Assembly (NCBI RefSeq): GCF_002210425.1
Contig: NZ_MWQK01000002.1
Coordinates: 248,001-312,000, forward strand
Length of the DNA: 64,000 nucleotides
Direction of reading: 5' to 3'
Origin: Fibrobacter sp. UWB2
Lineage (GTDB): Bacteria; Fibrobacterota; Fibrobacteria; Fibrobacterales; Fibrobacteraceae
The notes under the pieces were generated by a model, which worked only from the letters and a program-made list of their open reading frames with translations, searched no databases and was not told the DNA's origin. Below are positions 15,847-43,021 of the stretch, one piece after another. Positions within the stretch are counted from its first letter, which is position 1. Each line of letters begins with the position of its first letter. The position numbers and the translations under genes were made by a program.

Positions 15847-18800
15847 ATGAACAATAAATTTTTCAAACGTAATCTAATTGTATCGCTGCTTCTTGTTGCG
15901 TTTTTGTTTATTGTAACAAACGTTTCTTTTTTGTATATCAACAGGCAGGCGATTGACGATAGCTGGGACTCCCTTGATGAAGTCGCCTATGCTTCCGAAG
16001 CGAAGATGGGCTTTTTAGGCCGTTCGCTTTTGAGCGCTCTTTCCAATATTTCGACCGTGGTGGGGATGGAAGAAAACCTCCTCTCCGAAAATATGGTGCG
16101 TATGATTCGCGGCACCCGCATCGGTCCCTTGGTGTCGGTGGTTCGCCTTTATTTGCCCGATGGTCACATTATTGCAGACCATGCCGTTGTTTTTGACTCT
16201 TCGTATATTCAGCATTATCAGAAAATCGTTTCTCCCAAGCCGTATATTTCGAAAGTCGGTCGCGATTTGGTCCACTCCGAAAATATTGTGTTCGAACAGC
16301 TAGTCCCTGTCCGCCGTAGGGGGCAGGTGGTGGCCATGCTTTCGGCTGTTTCTGAGATTAAGCCTTTGTATGGCTATGTGGCGACGAACGCCTTCAAGGG
16401 CAAGGCATCTTTGATTGTGGTGGACCGTAGAGACGGTTCCTTTGTTGTCGAAAAAACTGGAAAATGGAAAAACTTTAACGAGTTTGTAAGGAATATTCAG
16501 ACAAAGAAAGGGTATTCTGTAGACGAGTGGGCGGCAACCGTGATGAAGGGAGAATCCGCCCATATAGCCTATGAGGAGGCTTCTTCGGACGAAGCTAAGC
16601 TTTTGGTGGCTTTGCCATTGTTTGGTGGTTGCTGGACCCAGCTTTTGTATGTGAACGAGAATATCGCCTTTGCGCGTGTGGATAAAATCCGCAAGTTCTA
16701 TATCGGGATTTCGGCAATTGAACTTCTCGTGATTCTCTTGTATTTGCTCCGCATGGTGTGGAATGCCCGCCGCATGGCCGAAGCTGAAAGTAATGAGTAT
16801 TCCGAAATTGCCGATGCCTTGAGCGGTACTTATGAATGCATTTTCTATGTGAACGTTTTGGATGACACTTTTGACACGTTCCATTCCGACAGGCTTATGA
16901 ACAAGCTTCACGAAGAGGTGCATGGGAAGGACTTCTTCTTTGAATCTATATCGAGTTTGCGCCATAACCTGTATGAAGACGACCTTGAAATTGTGATGCA
17001 CTTTATGGAAAAGGGGTCCTTCTTAAAGCGTCTAGAAGAGAATCCGAGTGCGTCTGTGGAATACAGGCTTGTCATTGATGGAACTCCGCAGTTCTATCGA
17101 ATGAAGGCAATCAAGTCTAGCAAAGATGAAAACCATGTCATTGTTGCTGTGGAAAATATTGATTCCGAAGTCAACAAAGCTATTGCCCAGCGCCAAGAAA
17201 TGGACCGCAACAACAGGGTTATTGAATCCCTGGCTTCAGACTTTGACTTTGTGAACTACGTAACGCTTGGCGAAGATGCTTCTTCGGACTTTGTTGTGAC
17301 GTACCGCGCCAGTTCTGTGCTTTTGAAGGCAATCCCTGGATGGTCTTCTGAAAAGAGTTTCTCTAAGAGAATGGATCTGTTGCTCAAGTATCTTGTCTGT
17401 GATTCTGACAAAAATCAGTTCCAGGTGCAGACGAGCCGCGATCGCCTTGTCTCGACGTTGAAGAACGAATCGGTGATTCATGTCAACTTCAAGATCAAGC
17501 TTGAAGGCAAGGAAGTTTGTTACCAGATGAAGATTATTGCCGACAAGGATGAAATTGGCAATCTCAAGGGTATCGTTTTTGGTCTGCACAGTGTCGATGA
17601 AGAAATCAAGAAGCAGATGGAAATCCAGTCGAACCTGAAGCAGAACCTTGAAATTATCGACATTCTTTCGGAAGACTATTCGTCACTCTTCTACTTCAAT
17701 CTTGTCGATGACACAAGCGGAGTCCTTGCTGTTCGTGAAGATATTAGGGCTGCTTTTAAGGATCCTTTTGCCAACTGCGAAAGGCTGGAAGATGTCTTTA
17801 AGACGTTTGTCCTGAATATGGCGCACCCGGATGACCGTGAAAAGCTTATCGGGCTTGCTTCTAGAGAGTATGTGGCCGGACAGCTTATGCACCAGAAGCG
17901 CTTGACCATTGTATTTAGACACCTCTACGGTACTGAATACAAGTACACGCGTCTCGTGTTTGCCAAGGCTGAACCTGTCGATGTCCCGCCGAAGCTTATC
18001 GCTGTTGGCTTTGTCGAAGTGGATGCCCAGTACCGTGCAGAAACGGAACACCAGGAAAATATTGAACGCATTATGAGCCTTTCGGACCAGTACGAAGTCG
18101 TGTTCGATGTCAATATCGATACGGGCTTGTTTAGCGTTTCGTTGACAGGCGGAAAGTTCAAAGATGTCGTTAATGAAGAGACTGGAGAAGGCGTTGACTT
18201 CTTTAAGGACAGGGAAAAGGATGTCCGCAAGATTGTCTATAAGGACGATGTTGATTCCGTGCTCTCTTCGCTTAATCGCGATACCGTAATTGCTCGCTTG
18301 CAACACGATAACTCCTTCTTCCAGGATTATCGACGTGTGACTAGCGAAGGGCTCAAGTGGTACCGCATGAAGGTGACCAAGATGGGCGACTGGTCCAAGT
18401 CTCGTCGAGTGCTTGTCGGCCTGTTCAATAACGATGTCGTTTACCGCAAGGAAATGGCGCAACAGGCGGCCCTTGAACAGGCGCTTGAAATGGCGAAGTC
18501 GGCGTCACGTGCAAAGACGATGTTCCTCAACAACATGAGCCATGATATCCGTACTCCGATGAATGCGATTATCGGCTATACGGAACTTGCGACAATCCAT
18601 ATTGGCAACAAGGAACAGGTGCGGAACTTCCTTGGAAAGATTGAGCTTTCTTCGAACCACCTGCTTTCGCTTATCAATGACGTGCTTGACATGAGCCGTA
18701 TTGAATCGGGCAAGCTGAACTTGAATGAAAAGCTGGAACATCTTCCGGAAATAATCCATACGCTCAAGGATATTGTCCAGGCGGATATCAATGCGAAGAA

Positions 18801-20043
18801 CTTGCAGTTCTTTGCCAATAGCGTCGGTATTCGTAACGAAGATGTTGTCTGTGATAGGCTCCGTTTGAACCAGGTGCTTTTGAACGTGATTTCAAACGCT
18901 ATCAAGTACACGCCGGCGGGTGGCTCCATCTGGTTCTCTGTGGAACAGAAGGAATCGGACGAAGATGGCTATGGCGTTTACGAGTTCCGCATCAAGGACT
19001 CGGGCATTGGCATGAGCGAAGATTTCTTGCCGAAGATTTATGATGCGTTTACCCGTGTGAATTCCTCGACGGTCTCTGGCATCCAGGGAACGGGTCTTGG
19101 CATGGCGATTACAAAGAACATTGTCGACATGATGGATGGCACGATCGACATCAAGAGCAAGGTGGACGAAGGAACTGATGTTGTTCTGAATTTCAAGTTT
19201 GCTCTTGCCGGCGCTGAACATGAACTTGAACGCGTCAAGGAACTGGAAGGCAAAAGGATTCTCGTTGTCGATGACGATGTGGATTGTGCTAAGAGCATTC
19301 CGCAGATCTTTAAGGAACTCGGTGTTGAAGCTGAATGTTGCTATTCTGGCGCAGACGCCTTGGAACGTGTGAAGGCGGCGAAGGCCGAAGGTCACTTGTA
19401 CGACGCCTTCCTTGTGGACTGGCGCATGCCGAACATGGATGGCATGAAAACGACGTCGATGCTTCGCGAGTTGCTCGGGAACGATATCCTTGTGATTGTG
19501 ATGTCTGCCTATGAATGGTCGGATATCGAGGACAAGGCGACCGAAGTCGGAATCCATAACTTTGTAAGTAAACCTGTGTTCCCGTCGGATGCCCGTGATA
19601 CGCTGATGCGCAGCTTTGGGCTTTTACAGGCGGAAACTCCGGTATCGGATAAGAAGATCAGCTTTAATGGCAAAAAGGTTTTGCTTGTCGATGATAACGA
19701 ACTGAACCGCGAAATCGCCCAGGAAATTCTGGAGGACTGCGGAATACTCGTGACGACGGCTTGCGATGGCGAAAAGGCTGTGGAATACATGAAGAATGTA
19801 CAGCCGGGCGCCTGCGACTTGATTTTGATGGACGTCCAGATGCCTATCATGGATGGTTACGAGGCGACGAGGCTTATTCGTAAGCTCGACAACAAGGTGG
19901 CTGCCGAAATCCCGATTATCGCGATGACGGCAAATGCCTTTGCTGATGACCAGCAGGCGGCACTTGATGCCGGCATGAACGAGCATGTGGCAAAACCAGT
20001 GAACGTCAACAAGCTGAAAGAAGTGCTTTCGAGGTTCCTTTGA
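15847..20043 (+). CDS. Hybrid sensor histidine kinase with tandem PAS-like modules and two receiver domains
   Basis: 1398 residues. Transmembrane helices at about 10-32 and 284-305 bracket an extracytoplasmic sensor. Four PAS-like modules of about 130 residues follow (about 320-870), each opening with a segment like ECIFYVNVLDDTFD and closing with a strand such as NHVIVAVENID. The kinase core has HisKA with NMSHDIRTPMNAIIGY (His899 by position), then HATPase N, G1 and G2 boxes (NQVLLNVISNAIKYTP, IKDSGIGMS, GTGLGMAITKN). Two receiver domains follow, with probable phospho-acceptors Asp1191 (VDWRMP) and Asp1329 (LMDVQMP). There is no output domain, so signal passes to an unlinked partner. Its modules resemble those of the diguanylate cyclase at 48.3 kb. 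The gene precedes the RiPP-type operon, but nothing shows that it controls it. Confidence 0.9.
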   Translation: MNNKFFKRNLIVSLLLVAFLFIVTNVSFLYINRQAIDDSWDSLDEVAYASEAKMGFLGRSLLSALSNISTVVGMEENLLSENMVRMIRGTRIGPLVSVVRLYLPDGHIIADHAVVFDSSYIQHYQKIVSPKPYISKVGRDLVHSENIVFEQLVPVRRRGQVVAMLSAVSEIKPLYGYVATNAFKGKASLIVVDRRDGSFVVEKTGKWKNFNEFVRNIQTKKGYSVDEWAATVMKGESAHIAYEEASSDEAKLLVALPLFGGCWTQLLYVNENIAFARVDKIRKFYIGISAIELLVILLYLLRMVWNARRMAEAESNEYSEIADALSGTYECIFYVNVLDDTFDTFHSDRLMNKLHEEVHGKDFFFESISSLRHNLYEDDLEIVMHFMEKGSFLKRLEENPSASVEYRLVIDGTPQFYRMKAIKSSKDENHVIVAVENIDSEVNKAIAQRQEMDRNNRVIESLASDFDFVNYVTLGEDASSDFVVTYRASSVLLKAIPGWSSEKSFSKRMDLLLKYLVCDSDKNQFQVQTSRDRLVSTLKNESVIHVNFKIKLEGKEVCYQMKIIADKDEIGNLKGIVFGLHSVDEEIKKQMEIQSNLKQNLEIIDILSEDYSSLFYFNLVDDTSGVLAVREDIRAAFKDPFANCERLEDVFKTFVLNMAHPDDREKLIGLASREYVAGQLMHQKRLTIVFRHLYGTEYKYTRLVFAKAEPVDVPPKLIAVGFVEVDAQYRAETEHQENIERIMSLSDQYEVVFDVNIDTGLFSVSLTGGKFKDVVNEETGEGVDFFKDREKDVRKIVYKDDVDSVLSSLNRDTVIARLQHDNSFFQDYRRVTSEGLKWYRMKVTKMGDWSKSRRVLVGLFNNDVVYRKEMAQQAALEQALEMAKSASRAKTMFLNNMSHDIRTPMNAIIGYTELATIHIGNKEQVRNFLGKIELSSNHLLSLINDVLDMSRIESGKLNLNEKLEHLPEIIHTLKDIVQADINAKNLQFFANSVGIRNEDVVCDRLRLNQVLLNVISNAIKYTPAGGSIWFSVEQKESDEDGYGVYEFRIKDSGIGMSEDFLPKIYDAFTRVNSSTVSGIQGTGLGMAITKNIVDMMDGTIDIKSKVDEGTDVVLNFKFALAGAEHELERVKELEGKRILVVDDDVDCAKSIPQIFKELGVEAECCYSGADALERVKAAKAEGHLYDAFLVDWRMPNMDGMKTTSMLRELLGNDILVIVMSAYEWSDIEDKATEVGIHNFVSKPVFPSDARDTLMRSFGLLQAETPVSDKKISFNGKKVLLVDDNELNREIAQEILEDCGILVTTACDGEKAVEYMKNVQPGACDLILMDVQMPIMDGYEATRLIRKLDNKVAAEIPIIAMTANAFADDQQAALDAGMNEHVAKPVNVNKLKEVLSRFL

Positions 20044-20323
20044 TAGACGAAAGAACGCGTCTCCGGCGCTACAGACGAAAGACTAGAGGGTAATAAAGTG
20101 GATGATGTTTTTTTTTACAATTTTATAAAACATTAATTATCTGGTGGCTATCTGCTCCCTTCAAAAAAAAATAAAAACATTAGATTTTTTTTATTTTTTT
20201 TATTATTTTTTATTATTTTGCTTAAGGAAATGGAAAATGCAGAGTCGCCATAAAGGATGAATGCAAAGAGAAAGTCGATTCGCTTGATAGGATGTAGGCG
20301 CTAACTAAAAAAAGGATGCTGTT
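20044..20323 (+). other. AT-rich intergenic region between the kinase gene and the peptide gene
   Basis: 280 bases. The first 50 carry purine-rich GACGAAAGA-type repeats. Bases about 20105-20220 are extremely A/T-rich with long T and A runs and could hold an UP-element-like promoter or act as a nucleoid-protein site. I see no consensus promoter and no convincing gene. A 15-codon frame at 20257-20304 has no properly spaced ribosome binding site. Confidence 0.6.
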
Positions 20324-20410
20324 ATGAAGATGATAAGTCTAAAGAAGCTTCAGAAAGGTACAAAGGCCGCTGCAATGAGCGTTCGTTATACTAGTGTGTG
20401 CACCAAGTAA
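20324..20410 (+). CDS. Putative RiPP precursor peptide (28 residues)
   Basis: A 28-codon gene in good context: AAGGA eight bases before ATG. The peptide begins MKMISLKKLQKGTK, a basic leader-like start of the kind seen in radical-SAM peptide precursors. It continues AAAM and ends SVRYTSVCTK, with one Tyr, one Cys and several Ser/Thr in the last ten residues as plausible modification sites. No GG or other double-glycine cleavage motif is present. It is separated by 69 bases and a hairpin from a radical SAM/SPASM maturase gene and is the only plausible substrate gene in the operon. Assignment as precursor rests on position, size and composition, not on recognised homology. It is too short for default gene callers. 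Confidence 0.65.
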   Translation: MKMISLKKLQKGTKAAAMSVRYTSVCTK

Positions 20411-20426
20411 ACGTGCAAATTTTCAT

Positions 20427-20465
20427 ATAGTGGTTAAAGTCTATACTTTGGGCCTTAACCACTAT
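20427..20465 (+). terminator. Hairpin between peptide gene and maturase gene (attenuator or processing site)
   Basis: An 11-bp perfect inverted repeat (ATAGTGGTTAA/TTAACCACTAT) with a 17-base loop. No T run follows, so it is more likely a partial terminator, mRNA-stabilising or processing stem. Any of these would raise peptide mRNA over enzyme mRNA. Confidence 0.55.
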
Positions 20466-20479
20466 CATTATGGTTAGTT

Positions 20480-21778
20480 ATGAAATTTTCAAGGTACAAT
20501 ATAGAGATTGATATTGATGGAAATCGCATGCTGATGAATACGGTTTCCTTGGATTTGTTACCAATAGATTCAGATTTTCCGCTATGTCAGAATGGAATTG
20601 ATAGTGCAAAATTATCTTCAGAACAAATTTCTATGCTTCAAGAGGGCGGTTTTATTGTCGATGATGCTCTTGATGAACTGCAGGTTATAGAGGATAAATT
20701 TGACGCGGAAAAAACAGAATCGTTGATGTCCGTAAAACTGCTCTTATCAACGGAATGTAATTCAAATTGCCAATATTGTTATCAGCATTTTGCCAATTAT
20801 GAAAACTCAACAATAAGTGATGCGCAAATTCGCACATTTGTTTTGTGGGTAAATAATTACGTTGTGGAAAATAATATTCAAAAATTTTCTCTGGAACTTT
20901 TTGGTGGGGAGCCTTTACTTGCATCAAAACACTTACCCTTGTTATTTGATTTGTTGAATGAATTGAAAAGCAATAGGCGTTTCAGTGAATTCTCCGTTTC
21001 TATAATAACCAATACTTCTTTGTTTACGGATCAAATCCTTTCGTTGTTGGTAAAAAATGATGTTGAGTTTAAGTTTTCCATTGACGGCCCTAAGATTGTG
21101 CATGATAGCAGAAGACCTTTAAAGAATGGTACTAGTTCTTATGATAAAACTATAGAAGCAATTAAAAAAATTAAAGAGATGGGACGGATTGATCTTGTCA
21201 CGGCAAGATTTAATCTGGATAAAAGAAATATAGAATATTTGGAAAATGTTGCCCAAACTTTGCATGAATTGGGCGTAGAGCGCCTTTATTGCGGTAGAGT
21301 GTTTTTTCGAGGAAAAAAAACTCCTTACTCAGCGAATATTATAAATGAAAAAAGTTATTATCAAAATGGCACGTGTTTAAAATTATTCCATGTTCTTTCA
21401 AAATATGGGTATTCTGATACGCCTTGCGTTATAGAACCCTCTAGAGTTTGCCAGTTTTATCGTCTGCATAGTTACGTTGTGTCTCCAAAACTGGAGGTTG
21501 CTAAATGTGACGAACTTCTTGATATAAAGGAGCTGCAAGTGGGATATATAGATTCTAGTGGTTTTTTGAAAAAAGTTGGGAAAAACTATCAGCTTCAGAC
21601 CGGAAGGACTCCGTCAAAAGATATTGAATGTAAAAATTGTGCATACCTTCCAATATGTGGAATGGGCTGTCCAATAGAGGCTATGAATTTGACGGGAAAC
21701 CCTTTGAATCATGTTTGTATGAATAAAGAATTACTTCAGGAAAAAATAAAAGTTCTATTGATGGCTAATAATGAATAA
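20480..21778 (+). CDS. Radical SAM/SPASM peptide maturase (first of two)
   Basis: 432 residues. Residues 1-80 are a small alpha-beta N-terminal region of the sort that binds leader peptides in RiPP enzymes (assumed, not recognised). The radical SAM core starts at about 84 with CNSNCQYC (Cys93, Cys97, Cys100) and has GGEP at 141-144. The C-terminal SPASM region shows the usual spaced cysteines (CQFYRLHSYV, VAKC, CKNC, ICGMGCP, HVC), enough for two auxiliary 4Fe-4S clusters. Such enzymes make C-C, C-O or thioether crosslinks in precursor peptides. The ribosome binding site is weak. The gene follows the 28-residue peptide gene and overlaps the next gene by 8 bases. The Fibrobacter/Ruminococcus 'FibroRumin' maturase family is known to me by name and may be related; I cannot verify this here. 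Confidence 0.9.
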   Translation: MKFSRYNIEIDIDGNRMLMNTVSLDLLPIDSDFPLCQNGIDSAKLSSEQISMLQEGGFIVDDALDELQVIEDKFDAEKTESLMSVKLLLSTECNSNCQYCYQHFANYENSTISDAQIRTFVLWVNNYVVENNIQKFSLELFGGEPLLASKHLPLLFDLLNELKSNRRFSEFSVSIITNTSLFTDQILSLLVKNDVEFKFSIDGPKIVHDSRRPLKNGTSSYDKTIEAIKKIKEMGRIDLVTARFNLDKRNIEYLENVAQTLHELGVERLYCGRVFFRGKKTPYSANIINEKSYYQNGTCLKLFHVLSKYGYSDTPCVIEPSRVCQFYRLHSYVVSPKLEVAKCDELLDIKELQVGYIDSSGFLKKVGKNYQLQTGRTPSKDIECKNCAYLPICGMGCPIEAMNLTGNPLNHVCMNKELLQEKIKVLLMANNE

Positions 21779-22643
21779 AAAAAAATTTGAAGTCCCATAT
21801 AATTTTGACGAAGAGCTTATTCCGTTCTATAAGGAATATTCTAATTATGTAAATTTTCTGTTTCTTCCGCCCTACAAAGATGATCTTATCAATACTCGAA
21901 CGATTATCCAGTCGGCTGACAAGGGGGACTGCTATATGCCGCAATGTCGTTACGAGTATGAATCTCATTTAAAAGAAATCAAAGATGCTGGTTTGCGATT
22001 TGTTGTTCTTTGGCAAGTGAAAGACAACGTTATCTCGAAATCTATGCTTGATTATTATGTTAATCTTGGTGCGGCTGGCTTTATTGTTGCCAATGATGAC
22101 AATGCGAAAATAATAAAAAAATATGATGATGGTTTACTCGTTATATGTAGTATAGTGCAAAGATTATGTGCTGGAATGCTGGCAAAAGATTTTTCCAACT
22201 ATGACTACGTGGTTATGTATTATCCCTTTAATCGCTCATTAAATGCGATTAAACTTCTGAAAGAAATTAAAGAAAAAATTGTGATTATGCCTAATACGGT
22301 ATGCCACACGGATTGCCCAGCAATTCATCATTGGTTTCCATCAAAAGATCGTCCATTTAATCAAGATAGAGATTGTATGGCAATCAAGAATATTGATCGG
22401 TGTTGTTTTATTTATCCTGAGCACTTATCTCTTTTCGATGATTTTGTTGGTGGGTATAAATTGCAGGGTAGAGAATATCCTACTAGCATAATTAAAGATG
22501 TTTGTAGGGCTTTCTTTACTCGGAAGACTCCTCCGTCCCTTTTAGAAGCGAACATAGAAGAAAAACTCCAGGAGAATTTGTGTAAAATGACTCTTGAAGA
22601 ATATTACAATGTTAAAACATCTGATGTTGTTGCCTGCTTATGA
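21771..22643 (+). CDS. Peptidase-U32-like Fe-S TIM-barrel protein
   Basis: 290 residues. The alternating strand-helix pattern (FVVLWQVKD, AAGFIVANDD, YDYVVMYYP, KIVIMPNTVC) suggests a TIM barrel. PNTVCHTDCP (Cys178, Cys182) followed by His, Cys202, Cys211/212 and then GYKLQGRE (228-235) parallels the U32 family, where four cysteines bind a 4Fe-4S cluster and a K-x-x-GR motif follows. Known U32 members include collagenase-like proteins and the oxygen-independent hydroxylation factors UbiU/UbiV, RlhA and TrhP. An extra Cys54/Cys59 pair near the N-terminus is unusual. The gene overlaps both neighbours (8 and 4 bases), so it is part of the peptide-modification operon. Hydroxylation of the peptide is a hypothesis; proteolysis or a scaffold role are alternatives. 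Confidence 0.65.
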   Translation: MNKKKFEVPYNFDEELIPFYKEYSNYVNFLFLPPYKDDLINTRTIIQSADKGDCYMPQCRYEYESHLKEIKDAGLRFVVLWQVKDNVISKSMLDYYVNLGAAGFIVANDDNAKIIKKYDDGLLVICSIVQRLCAGMLAKDFSNYDYVVMYYPFNRSLNAIKLLKEIKEKIVIMPNTVCHTDCPAIHHWFPSKDRPFNQDRDCMAIKNIDRCCFIYPEHLSLFDDFVGGYKLQGREYPTSIIKDVCRAFFTRKTPPSLLEANIEEKLQENLCKMTLEEYYNVKTSDVVACL

Positions 22644-23458
22644 TTAATATACTTGTTGTTGGTGAAGAATCCTGGAAAATCCCTGAGCGTGCTGATGTCG
22701 CAATTTATTGCAGGAAGAATCCGGCAGATGTCGATTTGTACAGCGATTCGTCGCGAACGTTGTACATGTTGAATGAAAGTGATAAATGGATTGTTGTAGA
22801 TTATGTAATATGGCGCTGCCAGTTTTGTGAAAATTATTCCATAGAACATAAAATTTTAGATCTTATTAATTTTACAAAAACAAAGTGCATAAATAGTGCT
22901 AGAACAAACATTATGTTTGGACATAATATTTCGATGTTTAATGCAATGAACGAGTGTAATATGCCTGTCATTCCACGTAGGTTTATGATTGGAAGACGAA
23001 GTACTGTATTTGTTCATCCAGAGAATGATGTGGAGGTGTTTAAGATTGGAGATTATCATAGTGGATATGCAAAATCCATAATTCGAAATAAAGAAACGTA
23101 TCAAGATACCATAGATATGGCGTGTTTGTTTGATGATATACAATCTTTAGAGCCGTTTGTGAATTATGTGCAGGATGTTAGGATTTTGAAAATAGGGGCT
23201 TCATTTGGCGCTTACGAAAGAATTCCCTCAATGTGGAAAGCAAATGTGTGTCCGCATTTTTTGAAGGAACTTTTAATTAATGATATTCCGGCAGAAATCA
23301 TTGAGCATACAAATGCTTTGTCTGAATATATTAAAGCGGATGTTGTTGGCGTGGACTGGATAAAAGATGAGGATGGCCATTGGTATGCGCTTGAAGCGAA
23401 TCTTGCACCAGGCATGGAAAAAGAAGATAATTATAAAAAAATCGTGTCGTTACTATGA
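22640..23458 (+). CDS. ATP-grasp ligase of the RiPP-type operon
   Basis: 272 residues with the shape of RimK/MvdD-like ATP-grasp enzymes. An N-terminal alpha-beta domain is followed by the ATP-grasp fold with a probable ATP-binding Lys135 (VFKIGDYHSG), Arg181 (DVRILKIG) and a metal-binding end VVGVDW...ALEANLAPG (Asp239, Glu252, Asn254). ATP-grasp enzymes in RiPP pathways activate side-chain or C-terminal carboxylates to form ester, amide or added-amino-acid bonds. In this 28-residue peptide the C-terminal carboxylate is the obvious acceptor, because the last half has no Asp or Glu. It overlaps both neighbouring genes by 4 bases. Several cysteines (Cys60, Cys63, Cys83) lie in the N-terminal part without a known role. 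Confidence 0.85.
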   Translation: MINILVVGEESWKIPERADVAIYCRKNPADVDLYSDSSRTLYMLNESDKWIVVDYVIWRCQFCENYSIEHKILDLINFTKTKCINSARTNIMFGHNISMFNAMNECNMPVIPRRFMIGRRSTVFVHPENDVEVFKIGDYHSGYAKSIIRNKETYQDTIDMACLFDDIQSLEPFVNYVQDVRILKIGASFGAYERIPSMWKANVCPHFLKELLINDIPAEIIEHTNALSEYIKADVVGVDWIKDEDGHWYALEANLAPGMEKEDNYKKIVSLL

Positions 23459-24324
23459 ATTTGTATACGAAATCAATTAAAGAATTAAAAAAGACGAATA
23501 AAGTGCGTTTTTTTTTGCGGTTTGATCCTCTTGTTATTCCAAATGAATATGATGATAATTATATAGCTAATCAAATAGATGCCTGTAACTATTTTTTTTG
23601 TTGGTTTAGCAATCCGAATTGCTCTTTTATGGATATGCTGAGACAACAACATCGGCTTGCTGCTTTGGGAAAAACAGGGAATAACACGTATCTTATAAAA
23701 GGTTATTTTCGTACGCGAGAGGGGGGCTGCGATAACTGGGACTTGCGAGACAATCTAGCAGGCATGACCCGTTATGAACTTAGGAAAAAAGGTATTGACC
23801 ATGCTCATTTAGATTTGCTTCGTATTCGGCCTAATGAATATGATATTTATCGGGACGAAGATTATTTTAAAAAGATATACCAACCAACAACAGGGAAGAT
23901 TGGGGTGGATAGAGCAACAGTGTGTACGGCTAGCATTGCTGTTGACGATCGAAGGGTCTATAGTCATTCATTTATGTTTCGAAAAAATCGTTATTTCTAT
24001 ATAAAACATCCAGAAGGATCCGATTTTGAGTATTTGCAAGCTGAATTGGAGAAAAAAATGTCTATGTTATTAAGCCTAAAAAATGCTGGTAAAATAGATT
24101 TAGACAAGTTATTGTTCCATCTATCCTCCTATTATCAGTTGTTTTTAGTATGGATGCCTTTTGCCCATATCAATAATTCTATTGTGTGGGGCCAAATGAA
24201 TGCTATATTGCAGTATTTTGGATATGGGGCCTGTTCTCATGGTCGTTTAGATACCTATGCAATGTTGCTGTCTTCAAAGAATTTTCGGCACTTGTTTGAA
24301 CTCCATGTTAAGGATAATAATTAA
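23455..24324 (+). CDS. Unknown protein with degenerate Fic-like signature
   Basis: 289 residues, no recognised family. Residues 1-200 are mixed and rich in aromatic and basic residues, with Cys44, Cys49, Cys56, Cys92 and Cys157. Residues about 218-258 look like the core of a Fic (Fido) domain: a helix ending SSYYQLFLV, then MPFAHINNS (234-242), then a helix with Asn249 ending FGYG. This parallels HPFxDGNGR...N..L..GY of Fic AMP-transferases, but the catalytic His is Met234, Asp/Glu is His238 and the first Arg is Ser242. Any Fic-type chemistry must therefore be altered or lost. SHGRLDTYAM (261-270) follows. It is embedded in the operon (4-base overlap upstream, 2-base gap downstream), so it probably recognises or modifies the peptide. 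The Fic link is inferred by eye. Confidence 0.5.
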   Translation: MNLYTKSIKELKKTNKVRFFLRFDPLVIPNEYDDNYIANQIDACNYFFCWFSNPNCSFMDMLRQQHRLAALGKTGNNTYLIKGYFRTREGGCDNWDLRDNLAGMTRYELRKKGIDHAHLDLLRIRPNEYDIYRDEDYFKKIYQPTTGKIGVDRATVCTASIAVDDRRVYSHSFMFRKNRYFYIKHPEGSDFEYLQAELEKKMSMLLSLKNAGKIDLDKLLFHLSSYYQLFLVWMPFAHINNSIVWGQMNAILQYFGYGACSHGRLDTYAMLLSSKNFRHLFELHVKDNN

Positions 24325-24326
24325 AT

Positions 24327-25550
24327 ATGAATCTTATTATAATAGATTCCTGTACAAATTCATGTCCATATTGTTTTGCGGAAAAAGAAATGTCAAAACA
24401 TAGGGCAAATACAATGTCTATAGAAACTTTTGAGAAGGTTTTGCGCAAAATTCGAGCAACACCATATCCTGTTTCTGTAAATGTTCTTGGAGGAGAACCC
24501 TTGCTTCATCCTCAATTAGGGAAGATGATTGAACAATTAGAAGTGGAAAATAATGTTTCCGATTACACGATACTTTCTGGTGGAGTTGTGAAACAAAATT
24601 CATTTGATTTTTTTTCGCCAAATTCAAGGAAAATAAGTTTTCTTTTCAATGTCAATCAGAAAAAAGATTACAGGACGGAGCAATCGTATAATCTTGTGCA
24701 TGATAATATTGGTCGATTGATTGATAGGGGGTTCAAAGTCTCTTTGGGATTTAATATTTATCAGATGGATTTTAATGCGCAGGAAATTATTGAGTATTGT
24801 ACAACTTATGGAGTGTCTGCTCTTAGGCTTGCAGTTGCGAAACCGACGTATGGCATGGAAAATCCGAATCTTTTAATGCCGAAACAATATAGAGAACTTT
24901 CGCCAAAGGTGGCGGATCTGATAGAAATGGCATCTGCGTGTAATGTGAAGGTGAATGTAGATTGCATGCTGCCAAAGTGTTTTTTCAATGATGCCGATTT
25001 GTCAAGAGTAATCAAAGCACAACCTGGGGTGCTAGACGGAGTGTTCGGCAAATGTGGAATTGCCTTAGATGTTACACCTCAAGAAGATGTATTTCGTTGT
25101 TTTGCGACCGAGGAAATGCAAAAAAAGAAACTTGATGATTTTGAAAACTTCGAAGAAATGACGGATTTTTTTACGGATTTGTTTGATAATAGTTCAAAAC
25201 GCCCTGATATTTTCTCGAAATGCAAAGACTGTAAATATGCGGAAAATCAAACATGTAAAGGAGATTGCTATGCGAATTGGAAGGATCTTGATGTTAAAGA
25301 ATCTTTTTCGTCAATGATTGAAAATATCTATAACTGGATTGAAAAAAAAGATTTTGAAAAGGCGTATTCCCATTTAAAAGAAATAAAGCAAAATGTTCCT
25401 GCTGTGTCTCTTTTGTGGGCGTATTATTGGCTATCTTGTGGTGATAAAGTAAGGGCTCGTAGCTACGCAAGAAATGTAATAATCTTAACAAATGATAATG
25501 AGTTGATTGATAATGCAAAGAGCATCCTTGATTTCGTTTCTTCTAACTAA
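24327..25550 (+). CDS. Second radical SAM enzyme of the RiPP-type operon, with C-terminal helical repeats
   Basis: 407 residues. The radical SAM motif lies almost at the N-terminus, CTNSCPYC (Cys9, Cys13, Cys16), without the leader-binding extension of the first maturase. GGEP is at 55-58. Auxiliary cluster cysteines occur at KCGIALDV, FRCFAT, CKDCKY and CKGDC, consistent with a SPASM or shortened twitch domain. The last about 100 residues are helical, with a TPR-like pattern (KKDFEKAYSHLKEIKQ, GDKVRARSYARNVI), useful for protein docking. It starts 2 bases after the previous gene and ends the operon. Two radical SAM enzymes imply at least two radical steps on the substrate, or one acting on a different target. 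Confidence 0.88.
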   Translation: MNLIIIDSCTNSCPYCFAEKEMSKHRANTMSIETFEKVLRKIRATPYPVSVNVLGGEPLLHPQLGKMIEQLEVENNVSDYTILSGGVVKQNSFDFFSPNSRKISFLFNVNQKKDYRTEQSYNLVHDNIGRLIDRGFKVSLGFNIYQMDFNAQEIIEYCTTYGVSALRLAVAKPTYGMENPNLLMPKQYRELSPKVADLIEMASACNVKVNVDCMLPKCFFNDADLSRVIKAQPGVLDGVFGKCGIALDVTPQEDVFRCFATEEMQKKKLDDFENFEEMTDFFTDLFDNSSKRPDIFSKCKDCKYAENQTCKGDCYANWKDLDVKESFSSMIENIYNWIEKKDFEKAYSHLKEIKQNVPAVSLLWAYYWLSCGDKVRARSYARNVIILTNDNELIDNAKSILDFVSSN

Positions 25551-25890
25551 AAATGAAGACAAAGAGAGACTGTTAACTATAATGCAGGAGAAGTTTTGTG
25601 ACGCAGTTTATTTTACAATCTCGAAAATAATGGCTCTTTGTGCTTGTTTTAGCCCAAAATTCTTTCGTTTAATATTATATTAGCTCATTATAGGCGTGTG
25701 TAACATGGCTCGGTCTTGTCAATTCACGCAAGCGTGGTTGCCGCGACTCTCGCCTTTAGTTATATTTACCCGCAAATTGCATTTTTGCCTGGGTCCTGTG
25801 ACCAGATTCGCCAATTCCACTGGTGCTAGAGCAGTAAACTCGGACAAAAACATGTAATGAAACAAACAATCAAAAAAAGGAATGGCTACA
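25551..25890 (+). promoter_or_regulatory. Intergenic region with structured leader of rpsO
   Basis: 340 bases without a supported gene. From about 25700 the GC content rises abruptly relative to the operon upstream. Short hairpins are visible (CACGC/GCGTG near 25728; GGTC/GACC near 25793), consistent with a structured 5' leader. S15 is known to repress its own mRNA through structured leaders in several phyla. A/T-rich TAATATTATATTAG just before 25685 could hold a -10 box; no clear -35 is seen. No terminator for the upstream operon is evident. Confidence 0.4.
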
Positions 25891-41777: not shown

Positions 41778-43021
41778 CTCTTGAATTTTTCCAGCGTGAT
41801 GCCGGGGTAATAGTGCGTTAAAATCTGGATGTAGCTTTGACCGGCCTGTGCGCGAGCGCGAGCGCCCATTTGGCAAAGCCCAACGCCATGCCCGAATCCC
41901 TTGCCCTTGAGAATCCATTCATTCCCGTTCTTGTGGATGCGGAAAAAGCTGGAGGGGAGGATGGTGCCACCGCGCTTGAAAAGCCAGCGGATTTTGTCTG
42001 CTTTGGCAGTGAAAGAACCGTTGTTCGTTTCGATGACGAGCGTGTGGATGCGACCGCTCTTGAGCGTGTCTTGAATGTGCATCGACTTGATGCTCGAAAA
42101 ACTCGGGACGTTTGCTTTCGCTTCTTTTGCGTTTATCTGGAATAAATCGCGAAGTTCATCTTCGGTGAATTCACGAGTCCATTCGGTGTAGTTGGATTCG
42201 CGGCACCACGGCGTTCCGTCGGGGCGGAGGTCGGGCTTGTTTTTGAGGTAGGGGTGGTCTGGGCGACCCCAGGTGGCAACGCCTTCGGTTTCGCCACCGC
42301 AAGTGGAATGGTAATAGGCGGTGATGAATTCTCCGTTGTACGTCATCACGACGCCTTCGGTTTCACGGACGGCTTTGTCTGTAAGTGCCGTGGCGCTGTG
42401 GAGACCTTTGTAGACTTGGTCGCGCGTGTCGGCGTAAACGTCAAAGCCTTGTGCGACTCGGCTGCCGAAGTGCTTGTACGCGTAGGTACGTGCGGCAACA
42501 GCTTGTGCCTTGAGCGCTTCGAACTTGGATTCGTCGAGTTTGCCGATTTCGTAAGGAACGACGCCACGCAAGTAATCTTCTATGTCGATGACGTTGATGG
42601 CGTTTAGCTTGTTGCCATTAGCGGTGACGATAAATTCGCCGTTGTAGCAGGCTTTATTGAGCCCAGCCTTGTCTGTTGCGATGGCGATGCAATCGCTAGC
42701 AGAAGTGCCCGTGGCTTTGAAAACGCGTCGGTCAGCGGTTTGCTGGCGCTTTGATTTTGTCTTGATTTTAAGTTTGCCTTTAGAGGCGGTGATGTGCAGT
42801 TCTTCGTTCTTTTGACGGACGAAAATGTTTGGCACACCGACAAAGACGCCCACCTGGATAGGGCGGTTGAGATCTTTGGCGATTTTTTGAGGAACGATGG
42901 TCTGCTCGGATACGCTGTTTGCTTCGATCGGGCTATACTCAGAATTGCCGGCCGCAAGAGATGAGGTCGCCAAAGAGAGTGTCGTCAAAGCAACTGCTGA
43001 AAATATCTGGAGCAGGCCCAT
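41774..43021 (-). CDS. SpoIID/LytB-domain exported protein
   Basis: 415 residues. A signal peptide (about 1-23) is followed by a SpoIID domain with hallmark segments NVIDIEDYLRGVVPYEIGK, EALKAQAVAARTYAYKH, YHSTCGGETEG and GKGFGHGVGLCQMGA. SpoIID in Firmicutes is a lytic transglycosylase acting on denuded glycan. Homologues in Gram-negative bacteria are envelope proteins of less certain role, probably peptidoglycan remodelling. It overlaps the mtaB-like gene by 4 bases and follows def by 5 bases. Confidence 0.85.
   Translation of the reverse strand: MGLLQIFSAVALTTLSLATSSLAAGNSEYSPIEANSVSEQTIVPQKIAKDLNRPIQVGVFVGVPNIFVRQKNEELHITASKGKLKIKTKSKRQQTADRRVFKATGTSASDCIAIATDKAGLNKACYNGEFIVTANGNKLNAINVIDIEDYLRGVVPYEIGKLDESKFEALKAQAVAARTYAYKHFGSRVAQGFDVYADTRDQVYKGLHSATALTDKAVRETEGVVMTYNGEFITAYYHSTCGGETEGVATWGRPDHPYLKNKPDLRPDGTPWCRESNYTEWTREFTEDELRDLFQINAKEAKANVPSFSSIKSMHIQDTLKSGRIHTLVIETNNGSFTAKADKIRWLFKRGGTILPSSFFRIHKNGNEWILKGKGFGHGVGLCQMGARARAQAGQSYIQILTHYYPGITLEKFKR

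Follow-up and report, generated by a model that had tools for sequence, protein, structure and literature searches.

Does a 28-codon frame just ahead of a radical SAM operon in Fibrobacter sp. UWB2 encode the peptide on which that operon acts? The window analysed here is a stretch of 64,000 nucleotides, in which an initial annotation placed a candidate precursor peptide at 20324–20410 on the forward strand. The coordinates, length and sequence given there were exact on re-checking: the translation is MKMISLKKLQKGTKAAAMSVRYTSVCTK, with 28 codons and a stop codon. The frame begins 280 bp past a histidine kinase gene (15847–20043) and ends 69 bp ahead of gene A, which has no obvious Shine-Dalgarno motif of its own. 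A well-spaced motif had been claimed for the frame, and AAAGGA at 20311–20316 (forward strand), with 7 nt between its end and the ATG, bears this out. The C-terminal half of the peptide contains Ser, Tyr and Thr together with a single Cys (Cys26), as annotated, and the chain ends in CTK. Inspection of the peptide sequence also agrees with the reported lack of a Gly-Gly cleavage site and reveals no Glu. The peptide has no NCBIfam match, a search of its own genome returned no homologue, and its similarity to other precursors is at the level of shuffled sequences.

Genomic setting

The frame occurs within an island of ~5.7 kb (20040–25772) that is delimited by breaks in flank homology and a drop in GC content. 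Homology with three close relatives stops at 20036–20037 and resumes at 25773, and GC content is 35% in the island compared with 45–55% in its flanks. The insertion site lies between the histidine kinase gene and rpsO, which is followed by pnp. Empty sites occur at three loci (L121, L122 and L123), which have this kinase gene and this rpsO with only 200–300 bp between them that contain neither operon A–E nor a similar short frame. These homology breaks and empty sites therefore place the 20324–20410 frame inside the inserted stretch with genes A–E. Judged from sequence, these genes appear to be a recently acquired, five-gene peptide-modifying operon. The operon is compact, with overlaps of 4–8 bp from A to D and a start for E 2 bp past D, and neither a transporter gene nor a recognisable protease gene is present in the island. 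Intergenic DNA of relatives at the island site carries tandem CTAACCA heptamer repeats (L122:8110–8150 and L119:8755–8790).

Gene A and its partners

Gene A (20480–21778, forward strand) encodes a radical SAM/SPASM peptide maturase of 432 aa, as indicated by profile matches and Cys motifs: CX3CX2C at residues 93–100 and SPASM-type cysteines at 343, 384, 387, 393 and 397. Nearly full-length matches were obtained with models for CefB (NF038107; E 5e-54), TIGR04463 (E 8e-42) and Clo7bot (TIGR04334; E 1e-32), and PapB was matched over the core (E 8e-35). All four scores are far below the curated cut-offs; that for CefB is 184 bits against a cut-off of 600. These profile matches indicate that A belongs to the CefB/Clo7bot/TIGR04463 group of radical SAM/SPASM RiPP maturases and to none of the named families. 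The mycofactocin maturase model was outside the 25 best models for A. RiPP maturases are expected to have a leader-binding (RRE) domain in their N-terminal region; the N-terminal ~80 residues of the A product can be aligned with the same region of other RiPP maturases, and Pfam detected no PqqD-like domain there. No orthologue of A was found in 391 genomes, and the best match outside the window has 28% identity (E 1e-33). Scans of genome contigs with A and B, and of viral contigs with A, B and E, returned no close relatives; an alignment search of the viral contigs with A recovered only distant radical SAM genes. We attribute viperin-type matches of A and E in a defence library to the radical SAM core that these proteins have in common.

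The four genes downstream of A, all on the forward strand, are more heterogeneous. Gene B (21771–22643; 290 aa, with a Cys-rich C-terminal half) is an orphan with no convincing family or structure match and is absent from 99 other Fibrobacterota genomes; an impression by eye of U32-likeness gained no tool support. Gene C (22640–23458; 272 aa) encodes a synapsin-type ATP-grasp protein that matches PF02750 above cut-off (E 4.5e-13) and the synapsin II structure (E 6.6e-11). This family occurs in one of the 391 genomes searched, that of gene C itself, and in none of the 390 others or of 14 control genomes. Gene D (23455–24324; 289 aa) is a second orphan, without a convincing family match and absent from 166 other Fibrobacterota genomes, and the impression of a decayed Fic-like motif in it likewise lacked tool support. 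A tblastn search of plasmids with B, C and D gave no matches, and AlphaFold models of B and D predicted with no alignment were too poor to use (mean pLDDT 34–37). The product of gene E (24327–25550; 407 aa) is the second radical SAM enzyme of the operon; it carries a Cys motif of SPASM/twitch type and is extended at its C terminus.

Short cysteine peptides beside A-like genes

Short frames led by a Shine-Dalgarno motif occur upstream of 5 of 16 A-like genes, compared with 3 of 70 neighbouring genes at the same loci (Fisher p 0.005, a guide only for loci that were picked by similarity to A, are few and are perhaps partly related). All five upstream frames encode Cys, and two of the three control frames (L146 and L147) are Cys peptides situated directly downstream of an A-like gene. 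A 65-aa Cef-type peptide at the A-like gene of L142 falls outside the strict scan for such frames. Precursor peptides of the maturase group of A are mostly 30–66 aa long at the loci examined, and 28 aa is short by comparison.

Three further arrangements contain Cys peptides that the strict scan missed. At L023:207–2541, an ArsM-like methyltransferase gene is followed by an AAGGA-led 30-aa Cys peptide (MKSLIRKKESCAPVAQCCAKVSTLVAGCHD) and then by a radical SAM/SPASM gene. At L140:9636–10084, two tandem Cys peptides with a common leader (MKFITTPERKKADGD) lie on the strand opposite to a Clo7bot-like maturase gene; the radical SAM gene there is flanked by an ATP-grasp gene, which is RiPP-maturase-like, and by an orphan. 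In a Fibrobacter locus (L035:5602–7702), a 248-aa Cys-repeat peptide adjoins a CefB-like maturase in a system of the Cys-every-fifth type. Precursors of Cef and Clo7bot type both occur alongside A-like genes.

Coding potential of the frame

The 20324–20410 frame stands above the average chance frame, although the margin is not wide. When the 436-bp gap before gene A is dinucleotide-shuffled, 41% of the shuffles contain an ATG frame of at least 28 codons, and only 1.3% do so once a 5-base Shine-Dalgarno motif at 4–10 nt is also required. A survey of 46 intergenic gaps (13.9 kb), taken from the 64-kb window and from 12 further Fibrobacter stretches, yielded a single additional Shine-Dalgarno-led frame of 25–60 aa, at 41919–42253 (MVPPRLKSQRILSALAVKEPLFVSMTSVWMRPLLSVS). 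In the non-coding DNA at both ends of the island and on both strands, 20324–20410 is the sole frame with a well-spaced motif of at least five bases. A 33-aa frame past gene E (25582–25683, MQEKFCDAVYFTISKIMALCACFSPKFFRLILY) has no Shine-Dalgarno motif and is a weak alternative precursor. Codon usage gives no support for coding: the log-likelihood of the frame is lower than that of every equal-length segment of genes A–E. As a coding test for short peptides, codon usage is weak, but not empty, because a score lower than that of all the accompanying genes is also seen for two of seven precursor-type short peptides beside other maturases.

A stem-loop of 11 + 5 pairs at 20427–20465 (forward strand) separates the peptide stop codon from gene A. 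The stretch that contains it has a folding z of −3.2, and none of 200 shuffles folds as well. A terminator search listed no terminator at this position, and the peptide/hairpin region has no Rfam leader match. The hairpin could be an attenuator, a processing site or an mRNA stabiliser; full termination is less likely than attenuation or shielding of the upstream message because a U-tract is absent. The hairpin arms also carry a word (TTAACCACTA) that resembles the CTAACCA heptamer of relatives.

Comparison with known systems and alternative explanations

The systems closest to this locus are CefA/CefB and TIGR04463/Clo7bot, with maturases that resemble A over nearly its full length (E 5e-54 to 1e-32) and a short precursor frame that adjoins the maturase gene, as it does here. 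They differ from operon A–E in their partner genes, and CefA-type precursors have Cys at every fifth residue whereas MKMISLKKLQKGTKAAAMSVRYTSVCTK has a single Cys and no repeat. Graspetide systems and the grasp-with-spasm pair (TIGR04192) also combine an ATP-grasp and a radical SAM/SPASM enzyme in one operon; however, graspetide models do not match C, which is instead of synapsin type, and the peptide belongs to no precursor family. C shares its ATP-binding domain with synapsin, an animal synaptic-vesicle protein, but C is bacterial, the ATP-binding domain is all that is recognised in it, and its gene lies in a peptide-modifying operon.

We consider that 20324–20410 probably encodes the precursor of a small radical-SAM RiPP made by operon A–E. 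The earlier reading of the frame as a precursor gene served by the neighbouring radical SAM enzyme is plausible, because frame and operon share an island, the frame has the only 5-base Shine-Dalgarno motif in the non-coding DNA of that island, a hairpin follows it, and short Cys frames occur beside A-like genes elsewhere. Under this reading, translation would start at the AAAGGA-led ATG, and the basic first half of the peptide (MKMISLKKLQKGTK) would serve as a leader to which the N-terminal domain of A binds. A would then cross-link the C-terminal segment (AAAMSVRYTSVCTK) by SAM radical chemistry. The likeliest cross-link would be a thioether that joins Cys26 to a Thr, Ser or Tyr close by, since the nearest families of A act on Cys peptides. 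The hairpin after the frame could ensure that more peptide than enzyme is made, and ATP-grasp C, radical SAM E and orphans B and D may add steps such as ligation or another radical modification. Because no transporter and no recognisable protease is encoded on the island, the finished compound may remain intracellular or depend on functions of the host.

We consider it unlikely that the 28 codons stay open by chance within an A+T-rich 5′ UTR and that A has its substrate elsewhere or in another island frame, such as 25582–25683. Frames of such length are common in shuffled versions of the gap, the codon usage of 20324–20410 is not gene-like, the peptide has no homologue in its own genome and genes A–D have no orthologue in the genomes searched. 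Against this, few shuffles retain a frame once a Shine-Dalgarno motif is demanded, the frame occupies a position often taken by precursors at other loci with A-like genes, and no rival frame with a 5-base motif occurs in the non-coding DNA of the island. Another possibility, which we regard as improbable, is a regulatory leader peptide that is not a substrate and the translation of which controls the hairpin and, in turn, expression of A–E. A strong hairpin past the stop codon would suit this role; however, it has no U-tract, no terminator was found there, the frame contains no run of any one regulatory codon, and Rfam offers no leader match.

The initial annotation had likened the peptide to the cofactor precursors of PQQ and mycofactocin, a view that we find very improbable. 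Mycofactocin (MftA/MftC) resembles the present locus in having a very short precursor beside a radical SAM/SPASM gene. MKMISLKKLQKGTKAAAMSVRYTSVCTK has neither a sequence match to MftA nor its conserved tail, A belongs to a different maturase family, and the mycofactocin partner genes are absent from the island. PqqA is similar in size to MKMISLKKLQKGTKAAAMSVRYTSVCTK, but A is not PqqE-like and the island has no separate PqqD, PqqB or PqqC genes. The Glu-Tyr coupling of PqqA requires a Glu, which the peptide lacks. Its lack of an NCBIfam match and the closeness of A to CefB, TIGR04463, PapB and Clo7bot-type maturases, rather than to PqqE or MftC, also oppose this assignment. In its favour are the absence of an exporter from the island and the length of 28 aa, which can be compared with an average of 23 aa for PqqA and with a 23-aa conserved mycofactocin segment (PMC3023750). 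Gene callers are known to overlook precursors this small, and the same study (PMC3023750) records the mycofactocin gene of M. tuberculosis H37Rv as one that had gone uncalled. The likeness to PQQ and mycofactocin is limited to small size and omission by gene callers.

Implications of the operon

The operon, with its synapsin-type enzyme and two orphans, is more unusual than the peptide. Should the peptide prove to be the substrate, it would be a very small one for two radical SAM enzymes and an ATP-grasp enzyme, and B and D, which belong to no known family, would gain a role. A synapsin-type ATP-grasp in a bacterial peptide operon could hint at the ancestral chemistry of the animal synapsin ATP-binding domain. 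We suggest, tentatively and as the less probable outcome, that the locus represents a new RiPP class defined by a 28-residue peptide, two radical SAM enzymes, a bacterial synapsin-type ATP-grasp, two family-less proteins and no dedicated exporter. The end product of such a class could be a small molecule, intracellular and either cofactor-like or scaffold-built, and the class would include a synapsin-type fold that acts as a ligase.

The nearest relative of gene E (E 1e-44) occurs in a multi-radical-SAM cluster from another phylum (L163:4250–9965). An AAGGAG-led 54-aa frame ending in NYSVYHKYSRGT opens this cluster and is followed by a PapB-like maturase gene, the E-like gene and another radical SAM gene. 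With these three radical SAM genes, the cluster contains an orphan and a protein with a HADSHDD motif.
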